DNA of 64,000 bases. Origin: Trileptium ribeirensis. Lineage: Eukaryota > Nematoda > Enoplea > Enoplida > Thoracostomopsidae. The notes under the pieces are model-generated. The model worked only from the letters and a program-made list of their open reading frames with translations. It was not told where the DNA came from and ran no database searches. The DNA is taken from contig JASANE010018504.1 in assembly GCA_030248225.1 (NCBI GenBank), positions 1 to 64,000 on the forward strand. The letters run 5' to 3'. This document shows, piece by piece, positions 2,258-28,733 of the stretch; position 1 is the first letter of the stretch; each line of letters opens with the position of its first letter. A program made the translations under genes and the position numbers.

Positions 2258-2264
2258 TATAAAA
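2258..2264 (+). promoter_or_regulatory. TATA box of the left LTR
   Basis: TATAAAA preceded by CCAATC, conserved exactly in the right copy at 27217-27223. It lies about 170 bases into the candidate LTR, where a U3 promoter is expected. Transcription would start about 30 bases downstream. Confidence 0.5.
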
Positions 2265-2979
2265 CCTCCCGTCCCACCGAAATTCCGGCGGACGCGATCG
2301 CATCGAACCCAGACAAATGAGTCCGCCCCTGGAGGCGGCCTCATAAGTTGCCTAGGAGGACGCATCAGGCCTCTTAGCCCCACGACCACATTCCTTCAGC
2401 CTAAATCCAAGGAATTATTCCATTTCCCCCTTCTTTTTGGCTTCTTTAGCTTGTTGTTCGGTCAGTCGTACTGTTAGGTAGGTAAGGACGTCAAACACAA
2501 TAGAACGAATTTATGCATAGGCACCAATGCGAGCTTATCTTGAGGATAAATTTTCAGGCGCCCCTTGTTAACCGTTAGAGTCGACGTCGCCCTACGTAGC
2601 GCTCCAGCGATGCTGTCGAGCTCCTGTAGTCAGTTCTGACCACCGTTTTGCCCTCCGCGCCGCCTAAGTATTCGTCGCCCAGAGCGATCTACATTAAGGA
2701 CCGATTTCCGAAGCACACTAGGGCCCCTGCTTATCGCGCCGCATAGCTGATTAGTTCGCCAACATTGAGTCGAAGCAGGGATAACCGCCCCTAGTCCGCA
2801 ACTCGTCGGATATCTGGTCGCTCCTCCCCTGTTTTCCTTTTAACGTCCCGTGTCCCCCTATTGTGTTGAACTGCAGCGACCACAGCAAGGTACTACTAGG
2901 CTTCCCCGATCCGTTTTACTCGTCCCGCCCCGTTTTTGTTTAGGAACACTCGTCCACTTGATAAATTTTGATCTTTGTA

Positions 2980-2985
2980 AATAAA
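2980..2985 (+). terminator. AATAAA polyadenylation signal candidate in the left LTR
   Basis: AATAAA in a TTTGTAAATAAA context, kept in the right copy at 27937-27942. Its position downstream of the TATA box fits an LTR polyadenylation signal. A second AATAAA-like site lies near 3130. Confidence 0.35.
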
Positions 2986-3781
2986 CTTTGTATCTTGAAA
3001 CACCGCGTACCGCCTTACTTCTTACCGAGATGATAGGGACTTTTCTGGTTTGTCCACACGGACGTGCAGGCACTGCCCGCCATGGCTTGTGTGCGAGAAT
3101 GTCGCATGCCCTGACGAGCATGGTCTTCTAATAAATTTACCTCATTTATTACTGGAACCAAGGAATCCAATCATGGAAAGAACCGGCAAAATTAATTCGT
3201 CCCTGGCGATTATCCGAAAAGTTCACTAGGGATTTTTGGATATTTCTGTCGAGATAGAATTTACTGAGAAAGCAGGCCACGCCATTGAGAATCCGACATT
3301 AAACTCTCAGGGCTCGCCGGAATCCTGTGGGGGCCACATAGGTCAATGCTCTAACACGGAGCACCTCGTGATCCTAACTAGGTAAATTTACTTGAGCTAC
3401 AAATTTCTAAGGACATTTTCCTATTTTATTCCAACATCTATCACAATCAAAGGGAACTAAACAACTTCCAATGAGTCTAAGATAGGGAATAGCGGCTAGG
3501 CTCCATGACCTGTGAGCAGGTGTCGGTGCTAGCCTCCCTGGGGGACCTCAGAAATCATACCCAATACTAGACACGTGCGCAACCCTTCGGGCGGGGTCCG
3601 AACACACCCCGTGAAGCGCGCCTGCGGCCTGCTAAGCTGCGTAGCTTCTTGGGTCTGACCAAGAATAGGATTAAAATTTCAACACCTATGGTCCACCATT
3701 GAGGTTACGATAGCCGGGGTCGTATGGGCATGGTGTTAGGAAGTTGCGCCATGCAGCTGCGTCACCGGTTATTACATCGTA

Positions 3782-5287: not shown

Positions 5288-7505
5288 ATGGATTCTAACG
5301 TTAATCACAAAGGGGACTTGGAGAATAGTGACTTCTTCGGCGCCACTGACGGTCCGCTGGAGGACCCTGGACGCTTTAGGTCTCGACCGACCGCCGGCTC
5401 TGGTGAGCGACCGCTCACGTTTACTCCACATCGACCCACCGGACACTTGCGTCGTGGAGAGGCCGCCGAATTGCTCGGCTCGGACCTGAATGCTACGAAT
5501 GCTATCTTACATCACTTATCTACCCAACCCACCGGCCCTCCAATGATACCGTTGAGGGACATGCCAACCTTTGACGGGAAACCTGGAGGTCAGGATTTTG
5601 AGGATTGGGTTCGTATGTAAAATCATCTCGCTAACGCCAATGGTTGGGACGAAAGCTGATCGTCGAAAGCTGATTTGTGTACCAGCTCTCTTGCGTGGGC
5701 CGGCAAGGAAGGCTTTTGAGGGCCTTCCATCGGCAAAGCGCCAAAGTTTCCTAGGACTAGTTGCTGATTTACGCTTTCTGTTCTCGTCCTCTCGTAAACC
5801 TGAGAAATCACTATCAGGACTTTGCACTAGGCAACAAGGAGCAAATGAACCAGTCGCGATGTACGGTTTAGAACTGCAGAAGGTGTGTGATCGTGCCTTC
5901 CCCGATATGGAGGATGAGCAACGGGATACCATGCTTCGTATGTTTTTCCAGAGGGGTTTGCGACCTGAGGTGCGCAGGCAAGTCCTTAACCAGATTCATG
6001 AGTGCGAGACGTTTCGCGATACGGCAGCTGTTGCTAAGCGGTATGAGGATGCCAACGCTGCCTGCCCTGACCCAGACGCTGCGGTCCCTAGTAAACCTCG
6101 CACTAAAACAGTGAACTCGCTCCTTGAGGAGGGAGGTGAAGGTCTGATCACACAACTGCAGACCATGATAGAGGAACATCGCAAGGCAAACACTAGTAAC
6201 AGTGATACGATTTATCGATTGTTAGACGTAATTGATAAGAGAGCTGAGAACACGCACCAGCTAAACGCACTCGCGCAGCCGTTTGTACCCGCTGTGGCCG
6301 CAGCGCTACCGCCACGCTCGTTGCCGCCGCCAATTACCTGCTACCGTTGTGTAGAACCAGGACATGTTATGCGCGATTGCCCGCATCCCGCACGGTATCC
6401 GCCAGCCGCTAACAACGCGCCGCGTAATGCCGAGCCTGTATCAGTTTATGTTTCTAGCGCTGTACGCCGAGAGCCAACGCAGTACCAACCGAGGAACTAC
6501 GGAGGAACTTACCCGCGAAACGATAACTATACTATGGGCCGTGGAGGCCCTCAACCCCCTCCGCCTCGTCGCTTCGAGACCGGGGCTGGGTACCGAAATA
6601 ATCCAGGATGGAATAATGGAGAAAATAGTCAGAGTTTGAACCAACCTGGATATCAGTCTAACCATCCACCCCCAGGTTTTGCTAATAATATTCGCGGAAA
6701 TGGAGACTACGCAATTAACCGACAACCCGCTATGTATAACACTAACGGATACCTGAGAGTCTCTAATGAACGTTCTCAGTTCGAGCGCGGTATAGGCTCT
6801 CAGCAGCAGTCTAATTGTCCCTATGCAGGAAATGGAGGAAATAGGAACGGAGGTGCAGTAGAGCGCCGCCGATACCAGCTAAACTGTAGTGCTTCGCAAA
6901 CGAAATGTAATCGTGATCCTATCCCAGCCACCACCCATAGTTTAGATGTGCTCAGTCGCGAACTCGGCATGATCCAGGGTAAGTTAGGGTATAGCGCCCC
7001 GACTGGACGCGTGAATGCTATTGCAATTGCAGACGAACCACAGTATGACGACGATGGATACGAGGTGAACCGGAACGACGATGACATGGACTTTTCTGAG
7101 ATGACGGAGGGACTTGTTGAGAGGCATCTGAATGTGATTACGACCGCTCCTTGGGCTGACGCCGCGCGTCTTCCTCGGAGTGGTGGTCCGTTCCAGCCGA
7201 TCGACAATCCTGAAGATAGGACGTTGAGCTTAAGGGACGCTGACTATGAACAGCACTTGGACGAAAGCACTAGCACTGTATATAGCACCGAAAATATAAA
7301 ATACCAAAAAGAGGGTTATTTGGGAGAGGGATGGTATATGTCATGTGTGGATGTGCCTAGCGCAGGTTTCGATCCACTTGTATATATGTCCGCGAGCGAC
7401 TTAGAGAGCGAACCGCGAGGCGAGCGACCGATCGATCAATCGAACTGTCCGGCCATGCGCAGGCCTGGAACGAACAAACGAAACTTTAACTATATTGGAC
7501 GGTAG
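5288..7505 (+). pseudogene. gag: Gag (capsid and nucleocapsid with one CCHC zinc knuckle), broken
   Basis: The ATG at 5288 opens a frame that carries the MPTFDGKPGGQDFEDWV capsid-like start, then hits TAA at 5618. The frame stays readable for about 12 codons and then shifts near 5655, beside a roughly 14-bp local duplication of CGAAAGCTGAT. It continues to TAG at 7503. The middle resembles the retrotransposon Gag capsid fold region (LLRGPARKAFEGLP, then helix-rich sequence to about 6150). One zinc knuckle, CYRCVEPGHVMRDC (CX2CX4HX4C), lies at 6339-6380. A long Gly/Asn/Arg-rich tail follows. The product would form the particle core and bind genomic RNA. This copy cannot make a full protein. 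Confidence 0.85.
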
Positions 7506-10682: not shown

Positions 10683-12830
10683 ATGCGGAAAGTATGTATC
10701 ATCCTACTGTTACTTTGGCTTTCGGCGCTAAGCTCTACGCACGCCACGCTCTCGCCTTTCAGTGATGCAATCTCGCGACTAGGTGCGTTTGTAAACCGTC
10801 AAGTAGGTGTTGTCGTCGAACCGCAGGGTTTGGTAATCACCTCTGATCAGACTACGTACTTGCCAGTGGTCCTACAGCTATCACTGAGAGATTGGGAACG
10901 CAAGTCAGACCCCTACGTAAGCAATGTTTGTTCACGGTATGAAGTCAACGGATCCTGCCGAGCTGATTGCTGCAGGAAGGCGAATTGTACTGAGTACCCG
11001 CAGCTGCACACGACCTTGAGCACACTAGAACGCGAGCTGGACGATGCATATCATGGCATATTAAATACAAATTATTACTCGCTGGTGGTGCATTCCTTCT
11101 GCGTGGAGAACGAGCACTTACGTGACCTCACCAGCCGCCGTGAAAAACGCTTCGCAAGCCTAATCGCCGCCGCTGCAGGTGCCGTTTCTGGTTTTCTAGG
11201 CCTGGGAATGGCTTTTGCCAACGGAGTTCATATTAATAACGTACGTCAGCAAGTGACCGTTCTCAAAAAGTTTATGCGCGAGACGAATGATGTCTCTTTT
11301 CGGAACACTAAAGCAATAAAGCAATTAACCCGAGCTAATGAGGACATTTATGCATTTTTACACCACAGCATGCAGGAGGTAGTGTCCATGATTGAACAAA
11401 TCCGATGTGCTGACCAGAAAGAGGTCACACACGTGCACCATCAATTGATCGACCACATACTTCGAGCGAATATGCGCTCGTCGATACAAGCCATAATGGA
11501 GTCTATGTTAAACGGCGAACTATCCCCTGCTGTCATCGATGTCTATGCTACGACGATTATTCGCCATGGACCCCCGCATCTCTAAGACCATTCTAATGCG
11601 AGAACCCAGCCTAGCATACCAGTTTGGACAAGTGATGCCCGTGAGCGTTGATTTGACTAGATTTCGCTTTGGCTTTATTTTGCAGTTACCTTTGCCCAAA
11701 CACAGTGATGTTCGGCCTTATTTTCGGATTTATAACACAGGTTGGAACGTTCCTGACACACTAACGCAGTTGAGACTACCGCTGCCGCAATATGCAACCC
11801 GATTGGGACACGCGCGTTTCGAGTCACTGAATCCAGGAGCATGGAAGCACAGACCCGGAATTGATTTTTGTGCACCCCACGCGCTGCTAACCGACCACAG
11901 TACAAATTGCCTAGAATGGATTATCGCAGATGAGCTTGTGCCAGAATCCACCAAGCACGCATGTAGCAACCGCACGCTTATCGGTCCTCTCGCCAATGAC
12001 ACCGCCGTGCACACCACCATTCAAGGTGTTCTGATTAGGACCAGTGAACCGGAAGTTATGCTGACTAACCATAGGCAGCTTGCGCATGTCACCTTAGGTA
12101 AGGCTATAAAGGTTCCGCCTAACGGAGTTTTATGGTTTCCCCACGGAAATTATACACAGTTGGTCATAAGATCGATCGTGCTAACGAGCATGTTAAAGCC
12201 TGAGAAAATTACAGTCAAAATTGGACCGAATATCACTATTGACCAGCTCTCCGGCCTTAAATTACGACCCTTAACCTGGAGCTCACTCGACGATGCTAAG
12301 GCGACAAACTTACAAGTAGCTCAGATAGCTAAGGAACAAGTTCAAAAGATAGTTAACCTTCCTGCTTTGGAGTATACTGGACTTTCGCCTTACTTTATAG
12401 TCACCATCATCGTCAGCGTAATTAGTCTGGTCTACTGCATGACTAAGTGTAAGGTCTCGCCTAAGTACGCGTACTATCTGCCTCGATGGCTACCATGCCG
12501 CAGGAGGCTGATCAAAACTGATGGCAAACCCCGAAAAGCAATCAGATGGATTAGAGCTGATAAAAGAGGCCCGAGTGCACCACCTGAGAAGGACACTACA
12601 CCCCGAGTTTCGCCGACCGAGGTTTCGATTGTACCTTCGGGGACGCCGCGCGTGTCCGTTGTGTCCAATCGTGCCCCGTGTCGCTCCAACAGACTATTGA
12701 CAACCCGTACTTCGTCCGAAGAAGAACTCGTTTTCATAGAGGACGACGAATTATTCACTGCTCCTACCCGTGACTTACGCCGTGGACCCCGACAAGGTAT
12801 GTTCACCAGACAATTAAACACCATGAATGC
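10683..12830 (+). pseudogene. env: Envelope glycoprotein, class-I-like fusion protein, frameshifted
   Basis: The ATG at 10683 is followed by a signal peptide (MRKVCIILLLLWLSALSS). A Cys-rich surface part comes next, then a furin-type site RREKR at 11136-11150. Directly after it is an Ala/Gly-rich hydrophobic stretch (FASLIAAAAGAVSGFLGLG) of the kind used as a fusion peptide. A heptad-rich helix follows. The frame shifts near 11560. The next frame carries further ectodomain with N-glycosylation motifs (NRT, NDT, NYT, NIT), a membrane anchor at about 12391-12446 (YFIVTIIVSVISLVYC), and a basic, Ser/Thr-rich cytoplasmic tail. Such proteins mediate membrane fusion in infectious Ty3/gypsy-type viruses. 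Unusually, the tail runs without a stop into the protease. Confidence 0.8.
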
Positions 12831-13200
12831 AGGTAATACTCCACTTCTCATCAACGCAACTATACTTGGCACCCCAGTCACGACACTTGTAGACACCGGA
12901 GCTGATGTCTCAATCATGTCTCAAGCCCTAGCTGCCCGTTAAGGCCTAGTACCCCGAGACACAAACACTATCAGGATAGTCTCGGCTACACAACAGGAAC
13001 TGACCATTAGCGGAGTGGTGAAGGCACCAATTACTATAGGCTCGCTAAGCACCCCATGCGACTTCCAAGTAACTACCGACACGACGTATGAATGCATCTT
13101 AGGCACAGACTTCATGGCCCTCCTACCATACGTAGCTATTAATTTCAAGGACCGTTGTTTAGACCTGTCAAACGGAAGGAGAACTGTTCCGCACCCTTCG
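12831..13200 (+). pseudogene. pol: Retroviral-type aspartic protease (PR), interrupted
   Basis: The catalytic DTGAD lies at 12892-12906, preceded by PLLINATILGTPVTTLV. A TAA at 12940 interrupts the same frame. The frame then continues through ISGVVKAPITIG and the second conserved element (ILGTDFMALL, about 13100-13130), as in retropepsins. The protease would cleave the polyprotein during maturation. It begins in the same open frame as the Env tail (11539-12942) and switches frame near 13190 into the reverse transcriptase region. No clear slippery heptamer was seen at the switch, so decay is more likely than programmed shifting. Confidence 0.85.
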
Positions 13201-14640
13201 CCGACCAAGGAGACTACCGGCCACCAGTCATTAACGTAGTATCCAGGAAATATACTCAGGTACCGCAGAACACAGAACTATTCATCAACGCTATCCCCGA
13301 GATCACACAACCGCCTACTGGCCAAGCATTGTTTGTACCAGACCCCTTCATTAGGGACATCGCCATAGCTCACGCTTTGGTGCTCACCGGTCAACGCATG
13401 ATTCCAGTAGCAATGATGAACTTTGGCAACATACCCGTTGCAATACACGCAGGACAGACCATAGGACACATCGAGATGCTTGACGACAATGAGGTCGAGC
13501 TCTTATACGATAGCAACAAGCGTCTACTCGAGCTCGGACCTCCTCAGCACACCAAACAATGCAACCGCATAGGAGTCACACGCGATAATGTAGTACAAGT
13601 CATAAACGACCAAAAGAAAACGATCGATACTCAACGATCCATACAGGTACTAAGCAAAATTGACTTCGGGCAAACCACACTTAACCCTTATGAACTAAAA
13701 CAATTGAAAACCACTATTTCCGAAAATGCCGACCTATTCAGTGTACACCCTTTCGACTTAGGCAGATGCGGTGTGCACCAGCATAGGATAATTACGGGGG
13801 ACGCGAAACCCATAAAACAAGTGCCCTACCGCCTCGCACATTCTCTACGCGAACCCTTGAGGGAAGAACTGAATAATATGGTAGAAGCAGGCCTCATAAC
13901 ACCATCAGATTCACTTTGGGGTTCTCCCATCGTGTATGTCACCAAAAGTGATGGCACCCTACATTTGTGCGTAGACTTTCGCAAACTTAACGTAGTCGCT
14001 GAACGCGACCTATACCCGTTACCCCGCATAGATGACATATTGGGTTGCCTAAGGAACACTAAATTCATGTCTAGCTTGGATCTCAACAAAGGATTCTGGC
14101 AATTAGAATTAGATCCCGAGACCAAGGAGAAGACTTCCTTTGTCACCGTTCACGGACAATATGAATACAATGTTCTACCTTTCGGGTTAAATTCCTCTCC
14201 AGGCGCCTTCCAAAGGTGCATGTCAATCATTTTAAAAGGCTTAGAATGGGAGAGATGCCTCATTTACATAGACGACATATTATTTTTTTCACCCACATTT
14301 GAACAACACTTAGCAGACCTCATCACAGTGTTCGATAGGTTTCGTAAGGCTAATCATAAACTGAAACCTTCCAAATGCCAATTTGGACAGAAACAATTAA
14401 AATACCTTGGCCATATTATTAGCTATGAAGGAGTTAAACCTGACCCCGCTAAAACAGCCGCAATCGATAACTACAAAAGACCTGAAACTCTCAAACAATT
14501 ACAGAGCTTCCTAGGACTTGTAGGCTACTACCACAAATTCATACCACACTATTCCGAAATCTGTGAACCACTCAACGCCCTCCGACGTAAGGGCAACGAA
14601 TTTAAATGGACACCGCAATGCGAGGAAGCATTTGGAAAGC
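13201..14640 (+). pseudogene. pol: Reverse transcriptase, Ty3/gypsy type
   Basis: An open frame (13155-14816) of 553 codons contains the full RT core in order. It runs LREELNNMVEAGLI, SPIVYVTKSDG (fingers), the LDL of motif A with its catalytic Asp (SSLDLNKGFWQL, about 14076-14110), LPFGLNSSPGAFQ, catalytic YIDD (14265-14276), and the thumb and connection (KYLGHIIS, LGLVGYYHKFI). Sequence style and the YIDD box fit Ty3/gypsy elements. The enzyme copies element RNA into DNA. The RT core itself shows no stop, in contrast to its surroundings. About 180 residues before it (13200-13780) form the PR-RT connector. Confidence 0.95.
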
Positions 14641-15070
14641 TACGCAAAGCATTGGTACAAGAACCACTACTCATCTACCCGGACTTTTCCAAACCCTTCA
14701 TACTACAGACGGACGCTTCCGGATACGCATTAGGAGCCGTGCTCTCGCAGAAGACTGACAAGGGGACTTTGCCAATAGCTTACGCTAGCAAATCACTAGT
14801 GGACTACCAACGCTGATATCCCGCGATTAAAACTGAAGCCCTTGCTATTAGATGGGCCGCTCTACATTTTAGGCATTACTTGCTTGGACATGAATTTCAC
14901 GTCGAGATCGATCATAAGCCGCTCAAGGCACTATTTGAGAGACCACCGCGAAATTCACGCCTAGCCCAATGGCGTAATGAGTTATTCATGGAATTTGGTG
15001 GACTAAATATTGAATATCGCCCTGGTAAGGCCAATGCCAACGCCGACGGACTTTCACGCGATCCCCGACA
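14641..15070 (+). pseudogene. pol: RNase H domain with in-frame TGA
   Basis: All four carboxylates of retroviral RNase H can be placed: Asp in LQTDASGYALG (14712), Glu in KTEALAIRW (14835), Asp in EIDHKPL (14909) and Asp in NADGLSR (15045). A TGA at 14814 splits the domain, while the frame on both sides is the same. This looks like a point nonsense mutation, possibly CGA to TGA. The domain degrades the RNA strand during reverse transcription. It follows RT directly, as in other Ty3/gypsy elements. Confidence 0.9.
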
Positions 15071-15799
15071 TGACGTGGACTTCTCCGATTCTGCTGACGA
15101 AGCCGAATACGACGGGCAGGACCATCCTCGAATGGTTGCTGTGGCCGTGAAAGGACAGGATCGTGGCAAGGGTAAAGCTCCTGCCAAACCACCGCGGACA
15201 CTTCCTATTGAGGAAGCTTGGAAACGACTAACGCGACAGCTAATGGGACTTCTCCCAGACGCTCCCGTTAACCTCCCACCCGAGTACGTTAGAGAACACT
15301 TCTACCGTATGTTCGGAGGACCAGGATATGATCCCCTACCTGACCCAACGCGTTTCATTTTCTGTGGAGACATTGACGACCCATGGCCTGAAGGAGTCGA
15401 GATGCCCTGGAGGCGCTCGACCGCTCCCGGACCGCCGACTGAACTAGCCCCAACCCGAGAACCTGTGACTGACTCAACCCCTGGACCTTCATCGGCCCCT
15501 GATCCATTCGTTAGGCCTACGTTGCCACAAGAACCCCCGACTGCTCCGACACATCTCGCCCCTGGCGCTGCAAGCGAAAGCTCAACCCGTGCCACTGCTG
15601 GTACACCTGATCCCACTAGACCCTGGACACTACCGACGACTGCTAGGAAAAGATATGGTGGTTTACCAGAAGTCGAGGAGTTCGATACTTTAATTCGGGT
15701 CGCCTATGCATGCGGACCGCGAGTACGACTACAACGCCCTGAACAGGTGTACGACACTGGTGAACACATATACTTACCACACTTTCAACAATATGAGGG
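15071..15799 (+). pseudogene. Pro/Thr-rich spacer between RNase H and integrase
   Basis: The RNase H frame stays open to 15803 and encodes an Asp-rich start, then a long Pro-Thr-Ser-Ala-rich stretch without recognised motifs. It ends in a short ordered piece (VRLQRPEQVYDTGEHIYL). Such a long disordered insert (about 230 residues) between RNase H and integrase is not standard for Ty3/gypsy Pol. It may carry a protease site. The frame slips at about 15800 into the integrase frame. Confidence 0.55.
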
Positions 15800-17110
15800 G
15801 TGAAATCTCCTCAACTACATACCTACATTCAACGTAAAGTCAAACAATTTGGACCTATATGGTGGTACTTGCATACTCGACAGTCACCAGCTGACCAAAA
15901 GGCCGCGACTGCCCTTAAATTAGAAGCCCATCATTATCACCTCTGCCCCGACACCGCCATTCTTTACCTACATCCCATCATGCCCAACAATCACAGACCT
16001 AAATTGTGCGTGCCCAGACTACTCATTCGACAAATACTCAAACACGAACACAACACTCGATTCGGTGGACACCCAGGTAGGGATCGTCTACTTATTAAGC
16101 TCAAGCAGTTCTACTATTGGAAGACCATGGGTAAGGACGTAGACGAATATGCCAATCGATGCGTACTTTGCCAACGATCACGGAATTTACCACAAAATGT
16201 CCGAGCTGCGCTTGGAGCCAACCCACTAGCTAGTGCCCTTATGCATCGCATGTTCGTCGACATTTTGGACAATAGGGTCTTGTCCCGTAAAGGAAACAGG
16301 TACGTCATCGCATTCATTGATCAGTTCACAAAATTGGTCATAGCCGCTGTATTGCCCGACCAAACAGCTAAGAGCGTAGCTCGAGTGCTCGTCGAAGACG
16401 TGGTGTGCCGTTATGGCGCACCAGCCAGAGGAATTAGTCTCCGACCGAGGAGGATGCTTCGTTTCAGAAGTCATGGAAGCCCTATGCGCTAGGCTAAACA
16501 CATTCAAGAGGGAAACCTTAAGTTACAATCCGAAAGCCAACGGAGAGATGGAACGTTTCAACCGCACACTACTATTCCTCTTAAGGGTAGCTCTACCTGA
16601 GAACGACCATACCACGTGGTACGACGTCCTACCCTACTGCATAATGTCCTACAATTCCGCAGTACACGCTTCCACACATTATCCACCTTTCATGCTCATG
16701 CACGGATTCCAATCTCGTGTACCGGGTCGAATTGAAACACAAACTGATTGGGGACGCTACCCCGGAGCAGAAGCTTACCGCGCTAACGTACCATGATGGT
16801 TAGCCACGATCAGAGACCGAGCCTATCGCTCCATGGAGTCTGCTAAAGAATATCGGAAACGTTATTACAATCGCAAAATTAAGGTCCCCGATTATCGAGT
16901 TAATGACCATGTATGGGTCTACCGATATTACGCAACACCTGGACTATCACGCAAACTGGAACGCAGATGGTGTGGACCGTACCAAATCACTAAGATAATG
17001 CTGCCCTGCATCTGTGTCAAACTCCCTGGACAACTCTCTGACCATGTGATTCACATGAACCGCACCAAACCCTGCTACAGACCACTGAGTAGTTTTCCGG
17101 ACATGGCCGA
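15800..17110 (+). pseudogene. pol: Integrase (HHCC, D-D-35-E and GPY/F module), broken
   Basis: The N-terminal zinc site is visible as RFGGHPGRDRLL...YW...CVLCQRS (16060-16180). Catalytic residues are Asp in FVDIL (16259), Asp in VSDRGG (16443) and Glu in GEMERFNRTL (16551), with exactly 35 residues between the last two. The frame shifts near 16415, and an in-frame TGA lies at 16794. After it comes the C-terminal domain with RRWCGPYQI (GPY/F module, about 16960-16990), typical of Ty3/gypsy integrases. The enzyme inserts element DNA into the host genome. With two breaks this copy is inactive. Confidence 0.92.
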
Positions 17111-19500
17111 TTTGCTGAAGGCTGTGCCTCCCGCTTACATAGAGGCTGCACTACAAGAACCAGGAGAAACTATCCTTGCCGATAAATATTTCGCTAGGGA
17201 ATTACAGGCTGCAGATCCGGAGGCAGTCGACCGACTACGCCAAGACATCGAGGTGCATCCGATACAACTAGTGTGGAGATCGGCGATCCTAATCTAGTAT
17301 ACACGCAAGCTCAGGCTGACATACACCGCGCCGTAGTAGAACAATTAGCCATTCAGGCCCCAGCTCAAGGTTCATCCGGAGTTCCGCAACAAAACAGGTT
17401 ACCTATTCGTGATCCCGATAGAACCCCCGACACCGAATGGCCCGCTATCTCGCAGGAACTCGCTACACAAGACCCTGCTAAGTTGCCTTATACGCTTGAT
17501 AAACCCCCAGGCTCATTCTCTCCAGAATACGAACTACATACTGCCCCAGTTACACTTCAGGAACAAGAGCGATCTGTCAGAACTGAGGAACCAACTAGAC
17601 CTTTAGCTCTGCCACGTTCAGGTAATGGCCGTTCGCTACGACCATTTAACGCCAACGACTTAGGTCTCGTCGAACTACTCGCTTCACAAGAGCCGGATGA
17701 GTCCTCACCTCACACGCCCGAACAAGCTATATCTCCGACTTCAGCAGTAGAACACGCTGTGCAGACCTCTCCGCTTACGCATGCCCAACGCCGCGCCGCA
17801 GCCGCTACACAAACTTACCGCAGTCCCCGTTCACAACGCTTAATCACCGACTCGGATAACCCACCGGTACCGTACCGCCTCCATCATGAACCTCCTGAGT
17901 TGCATAAACAACGATACCCCAAACCTCGCCACGCATATTCCGCTCCACCTACCCCGCTCCCACACACGCCACTAATGCCATTAGAATTCGAAGCCACGTT
18001 AGAGGAGTATATCCCAACGAATGGAATACACCGTACTCGACACCCCCTAGACCGCCACCTACGCAATCCGACCCAGTTTCTAGCCAGCCTCCTGTAGAAC
18101 CCGCCGCGACCCGAAAACCCGTGCCTAAGCCACGGCTGAAACCCACCACCCCACCGGCCAGTGGACCAGTATCATCCGTAAGCTCTGAGAACACATCACC
18201 CGAAACTGTGGACTCCCCAACACCACCGCATCGGTGGGCAATCCCTCCCTTACTCTCGCCCCTAGCGGAATGTAAAGCTAGGACCCCACCTCACCATTGG
18301 ATAACCCCAGTTGCGTTATCCCCCCTCACCGGAACAAGAGACCGGTACCCCACACGTTTCTTCCTTCGGTCGCTGGATCACTAGGCGACAAAACCAACAA
18401 GCAGAATGGGAATGGGCATTAGAAGAAAGGAAAAGAATCAAAGATGAAGAGGCCCGTGCTCGAGGAGAACTTCAGGATGCAAATGATTTAGTGGAATATT
18501 TAGCAGGACCTATCATACAGCACCCACCCTCGGAGGCCCAAACGGCCGCCGACGACATTGTGGCAGAATTTGTTGAAAGCTTGACTGTGAGACGTGAGGA
18601 AAGGGAAAGCAGCAAGAAAGAGTCACGCCGACCCACCGAATCTTCGTAGGGCGGCAAAGCCAAACGAACTCGAACACGAGCCGTCCCCACGGTTAGCGAG
18701 ACAACTTCGACCATAGGCGAGTCAACCGAGGGTTCTTCTATTCGGGGGAAGAAGAAGGCGCCGCCGCGCAGCGCATCCTCATCCTCCGCCTTAAACGAAA
18801 CTCTAGCTCGACCCGTCCGCGCTAAAGCTCGACCGCATGTTAGTTGGGAAGACTGGGAGGACGAAATACCCTTAAGTCAACTCTTACCGGGACCTAGTCG
18901 AAAACCCCGCTTCGAACTTGACCCTTCTACTGAGGAAAGTGAGGGTTCCCCTGAATTGGGACCTTCTGGTGCGAAGAACGGAGCAAGGACAGAGCCTCCC
19001 CAACCCATGCGACGTCAACCACATCGTCAGGCTAGGGATCGTCGTCGAGTATACGAGGACTATATACCACACGGAGCTGAAGCTCGAGTTGTAATCCCGC
19101 GCCTGATTCCTCGAGAACCTGCACCCAAACCACCAGCCCCAACTCGACAAACCGTGCCTTTTGCTGCACCTACTCGACATCGTGACCCTGTCATGCCTAT
19201 GGACCCTCCATCTAGGAGCGCTCGTGCTCAGCACGACATGTTCGAACCTTTTAGGGACATATTCGACGACCAGGACATTGAAGACATGTTAGCCGCACAT
19301 CCTGATTTGGAACCGGACGAGGATAACGGACTACGACAGTTACGACCTGACGACATTGCACTGGAGGTGGTTCGACCTCCAAGACAACCACCTCGGGGAA
19401 GACGATTGTAGTGCAGACGCCAGCCCAAAACATCACTTCCTGGAATTAGAGCTCCCGCACCAAACGTCCTTCAAGAACCGCCATTAACGGCGATGAATAT
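17111..19500 (+). pseudogene. Long Pro-rich and coiled-coil C-terminal extension of Pol
   Basis: Downstream of the integrase, open frames on the same strand (to 17297, 17273-18097, 18121-18384, 18311-18649, 18956-19411) encode Pro/Thr/Ser/Gln-rich, probably disordered protein. One charged helical segment (WEWALEERKRIKDEEARARG, 18405-18464) could form a coiled coil. The last piece is Arg/Asp-rich (MFEPFRDIFDDQDIEDML). Frame changes near 17290, 18100 and 18320 and stops show decay. I recognise no enzyme fold. The extension links integrase to the NADAR domain and would be a very unusual tail for a Ty3/gypsy Pol. Confidence 0.5.
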
Positions 19501-19534
19501 TATTGCAGGAATCATCGATCGATAAATCCAAGAA

Positions 19535-20211
19535 ATGGACCGAATCTCTGAACCACGCGTGCCGTTCTACACTATCAATTACGCCGCACCCATCGAAACA
19601 TTTCTCTCGAAAGCCACACGTTGGCCAGAACTATCAAATATGGCTCCGTTGGGCCAAACAATCACGCAATACCCATCGAATATGCTTCAACGGAGCAAGG
19701 ATATCAACTCCTTGTCACTTATCTATTCGACGAGGAGCAAGCAAAACGAGACATATCCGACCTCAAGATGGGAGCTCGAGACATCAAAGCCATCTCCCGG
19801 AGGAACAAACAAAAATTCCTCGATCCCGAAACAACGGAGCGCCTTCGTCCTGCCCTACCGCACCTCATTCGAACGGTGCTCATCGAAAAGTTCAAAATCC
19901 CGAAATTCTGGAACGCCCTTCTCGCCACTGAGAACACTCAACTGCTCGAAGCAAACCGCACCGACTCATTCTGGGGAATCGGCCTCGGGCCAGAGGACAT
20001 TGCCTTTGGCCGACGTCCACGGCCATGCCATAACGTCATGGGCCGCCTCCTGGAGGAGATACGGACCTTTGTTCGCCACGAGGTCGCCAGCTGGCCGACG
20101 GTGCTAATTCTCGGCGATAATATGAGTAGTAGGAGAGAAAAATTAGTAGTAGTAGAGAAAAATGAGAAAGAGAGTAGTAGTAGAGAAAAATGGGCGTTCT
20201 GGGCCACTTGA
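19535..20211 (+). pseudogene. NADAR (YbiA-like) domain at the C-terminus of the retroelement polyprotein
   Basis: The frame starting at 19535 gives VPFYTINYA and TRWPELSNMAP, the N-terminal strand of NADAR proteins. After a frame slip near 19650, the next frame gives IEYASTEQGYQ (19675-19707), KFLDPETTERLRPALPHLIR, VLIEKFKIPKFWNALLAT, LLEANRTDSFWGIG (19945-19983) and MGRLLEEIRTFV. These are the family's conserved Y-S-x-E-x-x-x-Q, K-F, L-L-x-T and W-G-x-G signatures in the right order and spacing (about 190 residues). Known NADAR proteins act on NAD/ADP-ribose derivatives, and some remove ADP-ribose from guanine in nucleic acid. A counter-defence role here is inference. The Ser/Glu/Lys-rich tail ends at 20211. 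Confidence 0.8.
20120..20192 (+). repeat. Purine-rich direct repeats (AGTAGTAGTAGAGAAAAAT), polypurine-tract candidate
   Basis: Three imperfect units of about 20-29 bp built from AGTAGTAG and GAGAAAAAT. They form an almost pure purine strand at the very end of the coding region. A polypurine tract is expected just upstream of a 3' LTR, but no LTR copy follows here; the nearest lies 5-7 kb downstream. The tract may therefore mark an element end that was later displaced. Confidence 0.4.
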
Positions 20212-20290
20212 TTAATGACCTGTCAGGGGAAATAATGATTAATGACCTGTCAAAAATGATTAATTACCTGTCAAATATGATTAATGATCC
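20211..20290 (+). repeat. Tandem GATTAATGACCTGTCA repeats
   Basis: Four units of about 21-30 bp share ATGATTAATGACCTGTCA with small variants. Immediately downstream (20290-20405), a second imperfect duplication repeats an ACGTAATAC...GCTCCCCCTnCGCC pattern. Composition switches here from the GC-rich element to AT-rich DNA. Confidence 0.6.
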
Positions 20291-20632
20291 TAAATACATA
20301 TACACGTAATACATGCTCCCCCTACGCCCATGCATTATATAATATATACATACACATATATACGTAATACGTACAATAAAGCTCCCCCTCCGCCTAGGCA
20401 TTTATTCAATTAATGACTCATCACTTTGGAATGTTCTAGAATATTCCATTGGCACAATTCCAAAAATTCAACCAATCAGCGTTAGCAGAGAATACATGAA
20501 AAGGGTAGTCCTTATGCAATTTCAACAGCGTTAAACACCCCTAAATGCAGTCACCTTTTAGGAGATAAGTAGTATCATAATGTTTGGTTTCAGTTGGACG
20601 TGGAAAAACATGAAAAGGATTGTTTTCTTTGA

Positions 20633-20986
20633 TTTTATATATCTAATATAGAATTGTTTATTGTTAAACACCTGAAGGATCTGTTAATTAACCTTCCTGT
20701 ACCCATTGAAGTGAACAATGTCACGGTACTCAGTTCAAGGTTGTTTGGACCCGTTGCCAAAGATAAAATGCCGTACATAGTGCGTGCTAACTTCGTAAAA
20801 CTGAAGTTCTTTAATGATGGATATTCCAATGTGCTGTGTGTTTTGGACGGACGCAAAAATGAAACTACTAGTGAACTGAAGTCCAGATCTACCCAAGAAT
20901 TTAAAATAGAAGTCCGAGATAATGCGGGTGAGATAGTGACTGATCCAGATTTGATAATTTTTCTACACCTCCAATTCAAGAAATAA
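20633..20986 (+). CDS. Small unrecognised protein or exon
   Basis: An open frame of about 117 codons runs from after TGA at 20630 to TAA at 20984. It has no early ATG, so it is either an exon (an AG acceptor at the TAATATAG before 20651 is possible) or a 5'-truncated gene. The sequence looks like real protein: LINLPVPIEVNNVTVLSS, DKMPYIVRANFVKLKFF, then FKIEVRDNAGEIVTDPD and a LIIFLHLQFKK end. It suggests a beta-rich fold. I suspect a small structural protein of a Polinton-like element, because a polymerase fragment of that class lies at 1-500, but I cannot prove this. It lies in the AT-rich segment, away from the retroelement frames. Confidence 0.45.
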   Translation, partial: FYISNIELFIVKHLKDLLINLPVPIEVNNVTVLSSRLFGPVAKDKMPYIVRANFVKLKFFNDGYSNVLCVLDGRKNETTSELKSRSTQEFKIEVRDNAGEIVTDPDLIIFLHLQFKK

Positions 20987-21584
20987 AGATATTCCAGAAT
21001 GTTTGTTCAGTGATAAAAGAGTAGATTAAAACATTACGTGATGCGTGTTGAACAACTTTGGAAAGTACACCCACAATATTACTCAAATGGTGCGTGAGAG
21101 AGTTACATGTCGCTTTCGATGGTTCATAGAGTTACTTTTTAAATATTTAACATTGATTTTCATATTGTGTTATAACAACCTGCACTATTGCAATGATTCG
21201 GTTTCTTGAGATCATATTTATTTTGTATAAAATACAATTCTGCAATCAGTGTAGTTTTAAAAATCAATTAAATATGTATCGTGCGTAAAATAAATGTAAT
21301 TCATATTAAATTTGCGCAGGTCTTGTCTTTACATGTCTCAAGTTGATTATTTTTATGAATTGCTGAACCCAGTTTTTGCGCAGGTGTTGTAGATCATATT
21401 TGCTAGATACTTGGCTTAGTCTTTGCGCAGGTGGTTTCTTTATATCTTTACTACCACAAAACGTATAATTAAATTGAAAATAGTGAAAATCTTACAATTT
21501 GGAGGATTTCCTCGACGGGGAAATATGCATTAGCATTAGATGATATGGCTGACATAATAAACCTATAATAAGAACAATGACATA

Positions 21585-21925
21585 CTACTGAGGATCTGGA
21601 GGAGGCTCATCGGGTTCTTCCTCCGTACAAGGCATAACGCAGCGTGGTCTTATTGTCACCCGTTGATATGGATGAGGATCCCGCGGCACGAAATACAAAT
21701 TGACAATGTCCCAAAACTCTGGCAAACTGCATACATATGTATGGTGGCTACACATATGAACCCCGTACTGGCGAAAGTGTCTGAACATGTTCATCACAAT
21801 CAGAAGGTGAACCGTAGGTGATTGGTCGGAACGCCGTTCAAATTCTGAATGTGCCGCTCGATCGTATGATCTATGCAAGCCTCGTTGCTTTGGAAATACT
21901 GGTTGCAATAAATACAGTGTGGCAT
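21585..21925 (-). pseudogene. Small C2H2-zinc-finger-like gene, probably frameshifted
   Basis: On the minus strand an ATG at 21925 starts MPHCIYCNQYFQSNEACIDH, a CX2C...H-X4-H finger-like pattern, and ends at TGA 21800. An overlapping minus frame (to 21585) continues with MFRHFRQYGVHMCSHHTYVC, LPEFWDIVNLYFVPRDPHPY and an acidic Pro-rich end (EEEPDEPPPDPQ). The two parts look like one small protein broken by a frame shift near 21815, or joined by an unseen small intron. Function is unknown. It neighbours the ORF at 20633-20986 on the opposite strand, and both may belong to one DNA element. Confidence 0.35.
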
Positions 21926-21969
21926 TTTAATTTTTATAAAAATATGACAAAAAATACTAAAATCATGGC

Positions 21970-22110
21970 CAGATTTACCCAGTTAGTCAAACACTTATAG
22001 AACCATCCGAATGACGAATAATGTTTGGTATTATCCGTCAAGCACTCTTATTTACCCAGTTGGTCAAACACTCATAGAATGCCGAATAATGCTTGGCATT
22101 ACCTAGGCTA
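21970..22110 (+). repeat. Two-unit tandem repeat, about 78 bp
   Basis: TTTACCCAGTTAGTCAAACACTTATAGAA...GACGAATAATGTTTGGTATTA is repeated as TTTACCCAGTTGGTCAAACACTCATAGAA...GCCGAATAATGCTTGGCATTA. Confidence 0.65.
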
Positions 22111-25100
22111 AACCCAGCGGTGATAATGGTAATCTACGAGCTCAAATTTCATAAAGTTTATTGTTGGATAACAATAGGATAACCCAGTCTGCACCCAGGG
22201 CTTTATACAAACCTACATATATATATATATTATAACTTATACTTATAACTATACTTATAACCTACTTTATATTTATACATACATACACGTTGGACTCCCC
22301 ATTTACCTGCAGCTGTGTTTGCAGCAGATTTGAAAGCTCGCTAAAGTTTCTTAGATGAAAATTTGTTGATTTAAAGTTTGCTTAGACTAGCTATGTGTTC
22401 TATGCTTCTTGATGTCTATAATACAACATCGTTGTACGAACTGGCTTTCCATTTAGTTTAATTGCTACCTTAGTTATACTTTAGCAGAAATCTGATGCGT
22501 GGTTAAGTTGCTTGTTTGGGAGCCAACTGACAGTTGCATCTTAGATGGCAGGTTACCGGCTCGAAGTGTCTACCGTAACACGTTGCCAACAGAGCAGGCA
22601 ATCGCATCAGTTGGATTGGTACAAGCAACAAAAAAGGGTGGTCATCCTAGCCCTAATCCAGCATACCTAATGCCAGACTCAGAAAAATGCGTTCCGCTAT
22701 TTTACATCCCAGGTGGGACGTGAGGATAATGCCGTATGTTTTGAGAATGACATATCATCTGGGCACATGGTGCAAAGAAACGACAACTCATCTTTGCATT
22801 CTCCATTTGGTAGCATCACCTCTACAATGTGGTGTGTCTATTTACAATGCAATTTTTTTGTTTTTTAGACATCATATGGTATAGTGTTGCGTTACAGGAT
22901 TAGCTCACTTTTACAAAAAGCCTCTTATAAGTACACCCTGCATTCGCCGATCAACCAGGTCTGAACAGAAGCACGGGTGCCCTGTATGTCAGTCAGATCC
23001 AGTCAACGCAGAGGTACATGTGTCCTACATTGTCAGCCAACATATGTCAGCGCAGTGACACTCTAAGAAACAATCTACAAAAGATTGCAAGTCCAGTAAG
23101 GCAAGACTCTGCCATAAAATGTCTTTTAGGCCAGACTCAGCCTCTTCAACGTCGTCTTCGTCGTGTGGATCGAAACAAACTTTGATAAAAATTGAGACTG
23201 ACAGTCTGCTTATATAGTGCTAAAAACGCTCGGGGTGAATTTTTGAAAGAAGTATTAATTTTAGCAAACTTCTGACCTATTTGCAAAATTTTGTAAACTT
23301 TGAAACGAAAGTTCCGTTACAACTTTAATTTCACACTTGGTTGCAACTTTGATGCCAACGGCAAAGTTAAAAAGTGATTAAAAATTCATTAGCTACGCTT
23401 GAGAGCGAAAAGCTCGCTAATGACCATCTCAAAAATCGATTAAAATGATGGATTCTAACTACCTAAATTTTTGATTGACAAAATGGTCCTAATGACCAAA
23501 TCAAAAACCCATTAAAACTCATTAGTACGATTAGCTGCATTTCTTTGCAGTAAATTTTAGACAGACTTTAAAATCTTGCGTTTACAATAATCTAAGAAAT
23601 ATCGGGCGTAACACAATTTTTAAACATAATTAGATACAATGTTATAGCTTACGTGTTTTTCGCTACTAAATGGGATATTACAGTAACTTATTTTATATAT
23701 AAATTACTGGATGCCTAGGCGCAAATCCCAGGGGTGGGGCATGGGCCCGGGCCTCAGGTATTTTCACAAAAAACTTATTTCATACCCTATATAGACGTAT
23801 CAAAAGCGATATTGGGCCACATAATCGATGCTAAGGATGGATTTCCGCTAATGACTGTATGGCCCGGTGTTCGCGTGCCCCACTGCCCCTTCTTTCCGAA
23901 TACAAAAGACTTAGCGTAAACCTGAAAAGCTAAATTGCAACAATATATATTATTTTTTCTAGATTAATGACTAATCTCTTTATTTAATATAGCATAATCG
24001 TCAAGTTTTCTTGTGACATATTAGATGATTATTTTTTGGCGTATGTAATGTTATATAACGCTGTCGTTTTTTCCCGACTATGTGCGCTTTAGCACATATT
24101 TAACACGGAGCTATCAGCAAGAATTTATTTTTATATATATAGTTTTACATTACAAACGTATATGCGTTTATTTGTTATACATTGTAAGTTTTAGATTAGA
24201 TATATAATTTTTTATGTATTTGTAGGCTGTAGCAAAAACGTACTATAAAAACCTATGCTATATATATAACCAAGTCCATATCTTAGCTGGGGGTAAAAAT
24301 AAATTATAACGACTTTAATAAAATTTTGAACCCATTAACGAAATTTCGCATAAAATATTTAACAAAACGTGTCTTATTAAAAACTATCAAAACTTAATTC
24401 CTAAATATACACATACATAAGTGATCCAAATTCAATACTTTTTGCGCTATTTAAACAAAGTCTGGTTTAATCAAATATAAATCTTAATATTTATAACTCA
24501 ACAGCAGTATTAGCAACGAATTTTTTAGTCATTTTACTGAAAATTAAATACATACTACATAAATACTAGCACATATTATATATGAGTACTTAAAGTTATA
24601 TTGCAACGTTCCCTGAGTTTTCGCTAATCCCATCCTTCGCGGTATCATGTAGCTGTCTTTTTGGAATCCTTAAATACATAACACCATACAATACATCGTG
24701 TAATACAACGATAAATATATTTGTTCCCCCGCATTTGTTTAAAGTTTTATTAATCATTCTTCTTCTACACCACGCATTGACTAGCATTTAATAACGAACA
24801 AGCAACTATTAAAATAAAGTATGTATTTTTACAATTTCTTGTTTAAAAAGTTTCTGTTGCGTCGTTAACTACTTTTCGATTTTCACGTCTTTCTGTCACA
24901 AACGCATGGCTGCGACATTATTTTCGCGTTTTGATTCTGTGAATTTCACCTGTTGATTGTTGGTTATCAGATCAATTGCTTGCGATAACACTGGAGCTAC
25001 CACTTTTACCTGCGTATTTTATGCCAACTGTTCAATCCATGACAAAACCCTTGGATTTTGATTAATTTTTTGCGATTGTTGCCGTCGTAGTGGTAACTTT

Positions 25101-25377
25101 TATTAAGCTAGCCCCACATCTGACAGAGAGTGGTTTGTATGAAACGTCTAATTTTTTATATTCATAATTACTCACCTGTCACTATCCTACGATGTGAGAC
25201 AACAGGTGAATTCTATCGCACCGTTCAACGCTATGCAATAACGCACCTTTTAAAGTTGTTTGTAATCCATTTGTTAACAAGCTTCAATTGCGAAAAGTGA
25301 ATTTTTACCATGAAATTCATAAAATAAATCAGGGCCTGAAAACAAATGGCTATCTGACAAAATCGCTATCCTAAACT
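22111..25377. other. AT-rich stretch without recognised gene
   Basis: AT-rich sequence with low-complexity TATA/CTTATAA runs near 22215-22290. It also carries related ATTAAAA...CATTAG motifs near 23370-23530. Short open frames here (for example 22499-22723 and 23734-23919) show no protein signature. It lies between the retroelement coding region and the second 3.26-kb repeat. Confidence 0.5.
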
Positions 25378-27048
25378 ATGGGTAGAAAATTCGAGGCGAT
25401 GACCAACGGGTCGACTCGTGGAATCAGTTCGACTTCGGCAGCACGGAGTTCGGTCGACTTTACTGACCGGCTCCGACGCATTTTCTCTATTGTTTTCACT
25501 ATCAGTTCGATGCTTTCCAGTGTTTTCCCTTTTTCGTTTACGATTGATTCGACAGTCGAAGGACCCGCTCGGACCATTTTGGCCTTGCGGAAGGGGACTA
25601 GCATTTGCTGTCCCGGATCAACTATTGTAAGTCAGGAAAGCCGAGCGTATGGGGTTTAGTTTCCCAGCATGTAACAGTGACAGGCCATTCGCCGAGTGAA
25701 ATTTGCATGATAGTAGCACGTACCTTCTCCCTGTAGAGTGATTTGACGGTGAGCATCGAGCACCCCTCCTGCCCATTGATGGGCTACGCTGTCTAAATTA
25801 CTTGAATAACCTGCTTGCGTCGAGTCCCGTTTTGGGCGGTCTGCGGATTGCACGGAATTGCTGCAGAGCGTAGGACAAACAGTCGAAGTCATTCTGATTC
25901 CCCGTGGTCTTAGGTAGGGCACACTAAAACGGACGTTTCTCGTCCAGATTTTACATGACTTGCTGTTCCTGAGTTAGGGTTGTCGAATATTCCTGAGCTG
26001 ACCACGGTAAAATTTTCTTGAACGTACGCGCCACAGAAATAGGGACTTGTTCAATGGTTTGCTGTTATGGTTTACAAATTTATAGCGTAATCGATCGTTC
26101 AACGCCCATGCCGTGTTTGGGCTTGGACAGAAGCGCAGATTAGGGATGGAGGACTAGCCTCCGTCGGGTTTTAGGAAACCCTCAAAATTTCGATTGTTCT
26201 TTTGAGTTAGGAAAATTTGGCAACACAAAAGACGGATCAAATTCTAGGTATTGTCACTTGAGGTTAAGGTGTTTGCCGCTTACGCAAAATGCTGCTTAAG
26301 GATTGTCTCGGTTTGATTGTTTGACACCGATTCTAGGGCGTTTCAACAAATTTAGTAGACATCTCACCAGAACACAAATTTCACGGTGACGACTGACCGG
26401 AGTAACTTTAGGTGTCCCTCGTGACCCCGTGTGATCAAAAATGCGCTAGAGGAGCAAGCCCCCAGCTGAGCAAAAATTCGCCGACCTCGACCTGGGACGA
26501 TGACGCTTCGTTTTGTGGTGGTACACCAGTTTCGGACCCAAATAACTACGTGGTTAAAACAACTAAGTTTACCAGTGTTCACCATTGCACTACGCAATGG
26601 TGTTCTCTCGAAACCATTGTCTAAAAGAAATAGCCTTGAAGCTTACCCCTGCATCATCATCAGGTACCGCCTTTGCGGGAGAAACACTTCGTGTCCCCGC
26701 CGTCAAGCAAAATTTTAGGACTTCCTGAAAATAAAGAAAACTTACCTCTTCGCCCAGGCCATTTCGGCCTCAAACCGGCGAGTGCAAAACCACTTTTTCT
26801 TTTTGGAGCGAGAGTTTAGCCAGATTTCACTATTTATCCTGAGTGCCCGTTAGGCTATGTACTATGTATGCTGTATTGGTTCTTTTGGTATTCTCGCGCT
26901 GAGGTTTGATCCTACACGGGTAAATTACGCCCGCTGCAGCGTCGTTGGTTTTGACCACTCGGCTGCAGAAACGTATGAAAACACTGACTACGAGGTCAGT
27001 AAAATGTCGACTGCACTGCAGTATAGTTAGGACACTGCAATAATGCAG

Positions 27049-28732
27049 TGTAATAACAAAAAAGATCGGTTAGAGAGAGGCAAAGAAACAACAACAGAAC
27101 GAGGAAAACCGAAGACGCCAAGGCGTCCGGGGCTGGTCGCCCTTGGTCCAATTGCTCCAAACGACCCCAAGAATAGGAGATAAGGCCGTTTCGCCCTCGG
27201 CTAGGTGCCCCCAATCTATAAAACCTCCCGTCCCACCGAAATTCCGGCGGACGCGATCGCATCGAACCCAGACAAACGAGTTCGCCCCTGGAGGCGGCCT
27301 CATAAGTTGCCTAGGAGGACGCATCAGGCCCCTTAGCCCCACGACCGCATTCCGTCAGCCGAAATCCAAGGAATTATTCCGTTTCCCCTTCTTTTGGCTT
27401 CTTTAGTTTGTTGTTCGGTCGGTCGTACTGTTAGGTAGGTAAGGAAGTCAAACACAATAGAACGAGTTTAGGCATAGGCACCAATGCGAGCTGACCGTGA
27501 GGATAAATTTTCATGTGCCCCTTGTTACCCGTTAGCGTCGACATCGCCCTACGTAGCACTCCACCGATGCTGTCGAGCTCGCGGAGTCAGTTCTGACCAC
27601 CGTTTTTCCCTCCGCCCCGCCTAAGTATTCGTCGCCCAGAGCGACCTGCATTAAGGAGCGATTTCCGAAGCACTCTAGGGCCCCTGCTTATCGCGCCGCA
27701 TAGCTGATTAATTCGCGACCATTGCGTCGGAGCAGGGATAACCGCCCCTAGTCCGCAATTCGGCGTATATCTGCTCGCTCCTCCCCTGTTCTCCTTTTAA
27801 CGTCTCGTAACCCCTTATTGTGCTGAACCGCAGCGACCACAGCAAGATACTACTAGGCTTCTCCGATCCGTTTTACTCGTCCCGCCCCGTTTTTGGTTAG
27901 AAACACTCGTCCCGACAATAAATCTTGATCTTTGTAAATAAAATTTGTATCTTGAAACACCGCGTACCGCCTTACTTCTTGCCGAGATGATAGGAACTTT
28001 TCTGGTTTGTCCACACGGACGAGCAGGCACTGCCCGCCATGGCTTGTGTGCGAGAATGTCGCAAGCCCAGACGAGCATGGCCTTCTAACAAATTTACCTT
28101 ATTTATTACTGGAACCAAGGAATCCAATCATGGAAAGAACCGACAAAATTTAATTCGTCCCTGGCGATTATCCGAAAAGTTCACTAGGGATTTTTGAATG
28201 TTTCCGTCGAGATAGAATTTACTGAGGAAGCAGGCCACGCCATTGAGAAGCCGACATTAAACTCTCAGGTTCGTCGGAACCCTGTGGGGCCACATTGGTC
28301 AATGCTCTAACACGGAGCACCTCGTGATCCTAACTAGATAAATTAACTTGAGCTACAAATTTCTAAAGACATTTTCCTATTTTATTCCAACATCTATCAC
28401 AATCAAAGGGAACTAAACAACTTCCAATGAGTCTAAGATAGGGAATAGCGGCTAGGCTCCATGACCTGTGAGCAGGTGGCGGTGCTAGCCTCCCTGGGGG
28501 ACCTCAGAAATCATACCCGATACTAGACACGTGCGCAACCCTTCGGGCGGGGTCCGAACACACCCCGTGAAGCGCGTCTAAGGCCTGCTAAGCTGCGTAG
28601 CTCCTTGGGTCTGACCAAGAATAGGATTAAAATTTCAACACCTATGGTCCGCACTTGAGGTTACGATAGCCGGGGTCGTATGGGCATGGTGTTAAGAAGT
28701 TGCGCCATGCAGCTGCGTCACCGGTTATTACA
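27049..28732 (+). repeat. Candidate 3' long terminal repeat
   Basis: Same TGTAATAAC...GTTATTACA ends as 2091-3776, with the TATA box at 27217 and AATAAA at 27937. Flanking bases (GCAG before, TATAT after) do not form a target-site duplication with the left LTR flanks. Confidence 0.55.
27217..27223 (+). promoter_or_regulatory. TATA box of the right LTR
   Basis: CCAATC-TATAAAA, identical to the motif at 2258. If active, it could drive transcription into the AT-rich flank beyond 28733. Confidence 0.4.
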
Positions 28733-28733
28733 T

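Follow-up and report, generated by a model that had tools for sequence, protein, structure and literature searches.

NADAR domains are already known in Ty3/gypsy elements from Ectocarpus, and have also been reported with ORF1, the first open reading frame (ORF), of a Tx1 LINE of Crassostrea gigas (PMC12477816). A second close system is the giant planarian element Burro, the first for which an in-frame env between gag and pol was reported (PMC6431247). The sequence examined here is a 64,000-nucleotide stretch of the nematode Trileptium ribeirensis (contig JASANE010018504.1, positions 1 to 64,000 of the forward strand), referred to as the window. Judged by its sequence, a giant Ty3/gypsy-type element similar to Burro is present in the window as a decayed copy, with a NADAR ORF behind the Pol region. 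It is probable that this NADAR and a second domain that follows it form an accessory gene of the Burro-like element, encoding an ADP-ribose binder or an altered glycosidase and not a standard hydrolase.

The likeness to the Ectocarpus Gypsy families lies in a NADAR that is carried by Ty3/gypsy and kept across families of one lineage (PMC12477816). What sets the nematode element apart is a NADAR in a separate ORF after Pol, joined to a second domain; its NADAR is also devoid of the catalytic lysine. Among the papers listed by literature searches, with limited coverage of subscription journals, the Ectocarpus paper was the only report of a retroelement NADAR; the searches returned nothing for DUF1768 with a retrotransposon or for NADAR with a Polinton. 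With Burro the element has in common a very long internal region, an env or env-like part placed in frame between gag and pol within a single giant ORF, and accessory domains or ORFs. The giant ORF has 4,873 and 5,140 amino acids (aa) in Burro and about 4.7 thousand here. The domains listed for Burro in the excerpted text are MATH, BIR, ankyrin, BCL2-like, SUMO-like and dUTPase-like, NADAR not being among them (PMC6431247), and the window ORFs that were scanned gave no Pfam match to MATH, BIR, ankyrin or BCL2.

Two further systems are comparable in part. Bdelloid Vesta and Juno elements also carry a non-envelope, enzyme-like ORF3 downstream of pol, one type of which is a GDSL esterase; NADAR is absent from the main text of that paper (PMC5408684), and in the C-terminal domain of the nematode ORF the likeness is limited to a GDSL-like motif, in which Asn often replaces Ser. 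NADARs of animal RNA viruses are likewise ADP-ribose-handling domains borne by a replicator and proposed to act against host ADP-ribosylation. They are embedded in polyproteins with RNA-dependent RNA polymerase, whereas here the carrier is a reverse-transcribing element and the ORF is separate (PMC9503650).

NADAR identity and active site

The piece at 19552-20211 matched the NADAR profile PF08719 with E=5.3e-14 and 53.2 bits, above the cut-off of 35.1, and five other copies scored 50.9 to 61.4 bits. It also matched phrog_1017 (2e-13) and TIGR02464, the riboflavin-intermediate N-glycosidase model (6e-11, 42.8 bits), the latter without reaching the equivalog cut-off of 73.7. The NADAR structure PDB 8bau was matched at 0.035 by the window piece alone and at 8e-5 by a profile of nine intact relatives. 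No NADAR match, at E up to 1, came from the pieces that lie in the two remaining frames. A sequence-only reading of the window had named four NADAR signatures, and all four are present: TRWPELSNM in the frame of the ATG at 19535, and EYASTEQGYQ, VLIEKF and FWGIG in another frame (19552-20211). The profile search of all frames agreed with that assignment, one frame piece passing the PF08719 cut-off. The window copy is broken, the part from the ATG at 19535 being in one frame and the remainder in another. The domain does lie in the interval 19535..20211 first assigned to it, but family homology stops near 20,123. A weak match of 19552-20208 to the NCBIfam NADAR-family anti-phage protein model was also seen (1.5e-6, 27 of the 240 bits required).

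Active site residues were compared in 41 copies, including the window. E54 is kept in 39, E139 in 39, D144 in 41 and W147 in 40, and the catalytic Lys in none. Its position, equivalent to K50 of the P. nicotianae NADAR and K95 of E. coli C7, holds Val in 39 copies, Leu in one and Pro in one, so that no phosphate-coordinating catalytic Lys was found. The distal-ribose Glu (E43 of the P. nicotianae NADAR) is Glu in 39/41 copies and in 120/120 database NADARs. E43, K50 and E125 are among the P. nicotianae residues discussed in PMC11543638, which counts D130 and W133 among the pyrophosphate contacts and defines the YbiA subfamily by a Glu in the last strand. That last-strand Glu (E125) is kept in 39/41 copies. 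The residue numbering was matched by us via PDB 8bau, whose chain is offset by 2 from the numbering of PMC11543638.

As a control, the Lys position was examined in the 120 database NADARs gathered by profile, which have Lys in 119 cases and Arg in one. Lys also occupies this position in 5/5 other NADARs from this genome. The codon at the lost-Lys position is GTC in 17/17 intact copies, three base changes away from a Lys codon. This uniformity makes the Lys loss a property of the lineage sampled and not a product of decay in the window copy. Three further contacts were not relied on because they depend on the alignment: residues facing R79, Y84 and D86 of the P. nicotianae NADAR in a pairwise alignment are R90 (41/41), F95 (40/41) and D97 (40/41), whereas in a multiple alignment F95 and D97 stand opposite gaps in 120/120 database NADARs and R90 opposite mixed residues.

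The pattern of substitutions indicates strong purifying selection on the NADAR ORF. The ratio of nonsynonymous to synonymous substitution rates (dN/dS) was 0.057 in the NADAR half and 0.106 in the C-terminal half (105 pairs, 15 intact ORFs), the sample being those copies, 15 out of 33, whose ORF has exactly 372 codons. Within the 185 codons of the NADAR half, 27 first, 15 second and 122 third positions are variable.

Because several binding residues are kept and the Lys is gone, binding and altered cleavage are both possible. The Lys-less NADAR may thus be a binder of its target that does not cleave it, a reading that is slightly preferred. The element would most likely make the NADAR protein from its own message, and the protein would act on ADP-ribose-type ligands. 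As a binder it would shield ADP-ribosylated element RNA, complementary DNA or proteins, or would sequester signals. As an altered enzyme it would be a glycosidase with a changed active site. In either case the target would be a host ADP-ribosylation response, in line with the proposals made for viral NADARs (PMC9503650). We hold only tentatively the more specific proposal that a captured NADAR was turned into a Lys-less reader or decoy of ADP-ribose, shielding the element or soaking up a host ADP-ribosylation defence.

The alternative that survives best is an active glycosidase with altered chemistry, which would cleave an ADP-ribose-like or other N-glycoside without the usual Lys. The preferred explanation already includes it as one of two functional options, so the odds of the two overlap, and taken by itself it is rather unlikely. 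The dN/dS of 0.057 and the near-invariant Glu, Glu, Asp and Trp seem to exceed the needs of bare folding, which would suit an enzyme. Weighing against cleavage, mutagenesis showed that the E. coli C7 NADAR needs K95 to hydrolyse guanine-ADP-ribose efficiently, although Arg can replace it in vitro (PMC11543638), and Val would be expected to be unable to coordinate phosphate.

Separate ORF and linkage to the element family

Of 35 NADAR loci, four were without an alignable tail end and one (L051) was without a separate start, which left 31 and 30 copies for the counts that follow; L053 and L022 are one locus, so L053 was excluded here and from the counts over 33 and 41 copies. A stop ends the Pol tail in most copies, after an Arg-rich motif. 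The strict tail-end pattern was found in 19/31, the others varying, and an ATG begins the NADAR ORF in 29/31. The spacer between tail stop and ATG is 121-123 nucleotides (nt) in 23/30 copies in which both the end of the tail and the start of the NADAR could be mapped, and the seven others have spacers of 126, 115, 83, 47, 178 and 205 nt and one overlap. The frame of the NADAR relative to the tail (mod 3) is 0 in 5, 1 in 5 and 2 in 13 of those 23 copies, and 0, 1 and 2 in 7, 8 and 15 of all 30. An uninterrupted ORF of 372-377 codons is present in 17/33 copies with an alignable start, 15 of them with exactly 372. By sequence, the accessory ORF of about 372 codons is separate from Pol and made up of the NADAR and a second conserved domain.

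Just before the ATG, 31/33 copies have ATTRCAG, a motif resembling a 3' splice site, and by a stricter pattern 25/33 have this acceptor together with a branch-point-like CTAAY. The acceptor-like motif makes a spliced message likely, and the accessory ORF is likely translated from spliced RNA. ORF3s of long terminal repeat (LTR) elements are typically expressed in this way (PMC5408684).

The sequence-only reading had placed the NADAR directly after the Pol tail, as the terminal module of a retroelement polyprotein, and proposed that it may have served as an ADP-ribosyl hydrolase. Its position behind integrase and tail was borne out, also in other copies (a tail end lies upstream in 31/35 NADAR loci), but the domain stands in its own ORF beyond a stop and a spacer. 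That the element carries the NADAR likewise held, whereas its role as a hydrolase was weakened, with catalytic Lys in 0/41 and Val in 39/41 copies. As a whole, with the NADAR as an ordinary hydrolase, this model is now very improbable. Both active-site Glu residues are kept, as it would predict. The window copy happens to have tail and NADAR start in one frame, with two intervening stops, and in L051 a natural open frame of 1130 aa runs from the integrase C-terminus through the tail into the NADAR. L051 is best read as a deletion, however, because the tail end, stop and spacer are all missing from it. In other copies the tail stop, the spacer, the variable frame relation and the separate ATG led to the rejection of a fusion of NADAR to Pol, and the catalytic Lys is missing in 41/41.

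The recurrence of this arrangement indicates that the NADAR domain belongs to the retroelement. Among the window NADAR matches in the same genome the best 150 of 2683 candidates were scored, the window itself included, and the other 149 are 68-85% identical. With the Pol tail as query (18650-19408) the best 150 of 969 candidates were scored, and 12 copies among them have ORF1 frames of 4,705-4,749 aa. These lengths fit a single ORF from gag to the tail stop, a distance of about 4,707 codons by the spacing in the window. A NADAR lies directly downstream in 12/12 listed copies whose ORF1 is open over 4,700 aa or more, as established in six by matching the NADAR list to the tail list and in six by inspecting 0.8 kb downstream; in one of the latter six the middle of the NADAR is aberrant.

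It is hardly credible that the NADAR belongs to a host gene or another mobile element merely adjoining the window copy: the genome does hold other NADARs, several beside A32-type ATPase or TBP-like ORFs, and foreign DNA does follow at 20,126, but recurrence of the tail-NADAR order in many copies, including the 12/12 with open ORF1, rules this out for the family, the NADAR stretch is element-like in composition, and the element NADAR is only ~22-28% identical to five other NADARs of the genome.

The same low identity leaves capture from the genome's other NADARs unsupported. At E 1e-3, neither the window NADAR nor nine intact ORFs retrieved a relative from the protein database; NADAR relatives there were reached only by a profile built with other NADARs. 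Scans of viral and genome contigs found none either. A tree places the retroelement lineage at its midpoint root, on a branch of great length, and therefore gives no firm indication of origin. The second NADAR set of the genome was surveyed in the best 150 of 2317 candidates scored, among them L001-L020. L001, L003 and L008 have an A32-type ATPase ORF next to the NADAR, and L008 and L015 a TBP-like ORF, neighbours that probably place the set in DNA-virus-like mobile elements. The NADARs of L001 and L003 are without the last-strand Glu. Among database proteins, P0051 combines PF00075 (RNase H) and NADAR in 299 aa, and NADAR is paired with PF01588 in P0012 and with PF01661 in P0125, a tRNA-binding domain and a macro domain, respectively.

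Several points weigh against the reading of the NADAR ORF as a selected, Lys-less accessory gene of a Burro-like element. The copies were picked by similarity to the window NADAR and the database set came from a profile rich in Lys-bearing sequences, so a more distant, Lys-bearing subfamily could exist. The choice of intact ORFs for dN/dS favours constrained copies. Replacement of the first Glu (E88), one of the kept residues, by Ala had only a minor effect in vitro (PMC11543638). The likeness to Burro was drawn from described architecture. The likely splice site is putative, being recognized by its motif, and simple scans of two 5' regions found no convincing splice donor, with weak candidates only. 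Finally, a role against ADP-ribosylation was not demonstrated for any retroelement in the literature examined.

The C-terminal domain and the layout of the window copy

The second domain of the accessory ORF comprises ~185 aa after the NADAR. It has an LGDS/LGDN motif, whose last residue is Ser in 11, Asn in 28, Thr in 1 and Ala in 1 of 41 copies. Two main versions were seen in L034, L052 and other copies, LGDN-M in 26/41 and LGDS-L in 7/41. The motif recalls GDSL esterases. No SGNH profile matched in the 12 members scanned, which gave only a weak OAS1_C match below the cut-off, and a profile search found no credible PDB relative. An SGNH hydrolase thus has no profile support in Pfam or PDB, and the domain is left without a family assignment. 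In the window copy this domain is gone, and very little is left of the 3' untranslated region.

All element features of the window copy lie on the forward strand. A pair of LTRs of ~3.3 kb each, 95% identical, encloses a 28-kb unit. The 5' LTR (500..3777) is 95% identical to 25471-28733 across 3.28 kb and, compared with the 3' copy, lacks some 92 bp at its start. The 3' LTR (25379..28733) starts near 25379, and L052, L053, L054 and L056 match from its positions 3-8. ORF1 begins with a gag region with one CCHC zinc knuckle (5288..7505; PF00098, 9e-6, above the cut-off). The env-like region (10683..12500) was recognized in translations of two separate pieces by its motifs, and is in frame with the protease. 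It has a signal-peptide-like start, a basic furin-type site, a hydrophobic segment and a transmembrane-like stretch near 12,380, the motifs from which the env-like assignment was made. The window pieces scanned for this region gave no Pfam match above the cut-off.

An aspartic protease fragment follows at 12800..12942, in a frame common with the env-like C-terminus; its PF13975 match (8e-5), made with a cut piece, stayed below the cut-off. Next come reverse transcriptase and RNase H at 13143..15060 (PF00078 3e-30, PF17919 1e-22, PF17917 3e-13). The integrase (15797..17294) comprises H2C2, rve core and SH3-like C-terminus, with PF17921 at 3e-18 and with rve (7e-5) and SH3_Tf2-1 (0.003) both below the cut-off; in copy L056 rve reached 1e-11, above the cut-off. 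LTRs, gag, protease, reverse transcriptase, RNase H and integrase are present in Ty3/gypsy order, the protease by a match below the cut-off. The long Pro/Arg-rich Pol tail runs over 17295..19411, and its terminal stop recurs at the same place in other copies. It is followed by a 123-nt spacer (19412..19534) with the splice-acceptor-like ATTRCAG just before the ATG, then by the broken NADAR ORF (19535..20125), whose N-terminal part and remainder are in different frames and whose C-terminal domain is missing.

Other DNA (20126..25340) replaces the C-terminus of the ORF and the long 3' untranslated region, and element sequence resumes at 25341. From 20,126 to ~25,340 no likeness to other element copies was detectable. 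Composition and strand skew are element-like up to ~20,110, then shift abruptly to DNA of 32-39% GC. The part from 20300 to ~23560 is a multi-copy repeat found in both orientations elsewhere in the genome. Two ORFs within it, 20633-20983 and 21585-21926 (113-117 aa), had no Pfam match. About 28 copies of a 75-bp tandem repeat lie at 29908-31987, 1.2 kb past the 3' LTR. A scan of the whole window gave no Rfam match and no tRNA.

Two other loci of the genome were noted. In L054 an LTR, gag, the tail end, the NADAR ORF and the start of the next LTR are present, and the env, reverse transcriptase and integrase pieces are unmatched. It is an internally deleted and presumably non-autonomous derivative that has retained the accessory ORF. 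L063 (G000:C17193) is a decayed mitochondrial COX1 fragment that reads better with AGR as Ser and TGA as Trp, which suggests an invertebrate-type mitochondrial code. It has AAA at two conserved Lys sites, a hint against the flatworm code.

Meaning for NADAR biology

The roles of NADARs outside bacterial toxin-antitoxin pairs are poorly known, and a part in virus-host conflict over ADP-ribosylation has been proposed (PMC11125620). The same paper reports that E. coli YbiA is active on guanosine-ADP-ribose. The nematode element adds a second association of NADAR with Ty3/gypsy beside that of Ectocarpus. New within the literature searched are the placement of the NADAR in an accessory ORF of its own behind a Burro-like ORF1, its second domain, the measured strength of selection and the absence of Lys from every copy sampled. 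A many-copy family under strong selection with a natural loss of Lys offers a concrete, testable case of a NADAR acting against or alongside a host ADP-ribose system. If the reader or decoy proposal is true, the host would possess an ADP-ribosylation defence against retroelements, directed at nucleic acid or protein.
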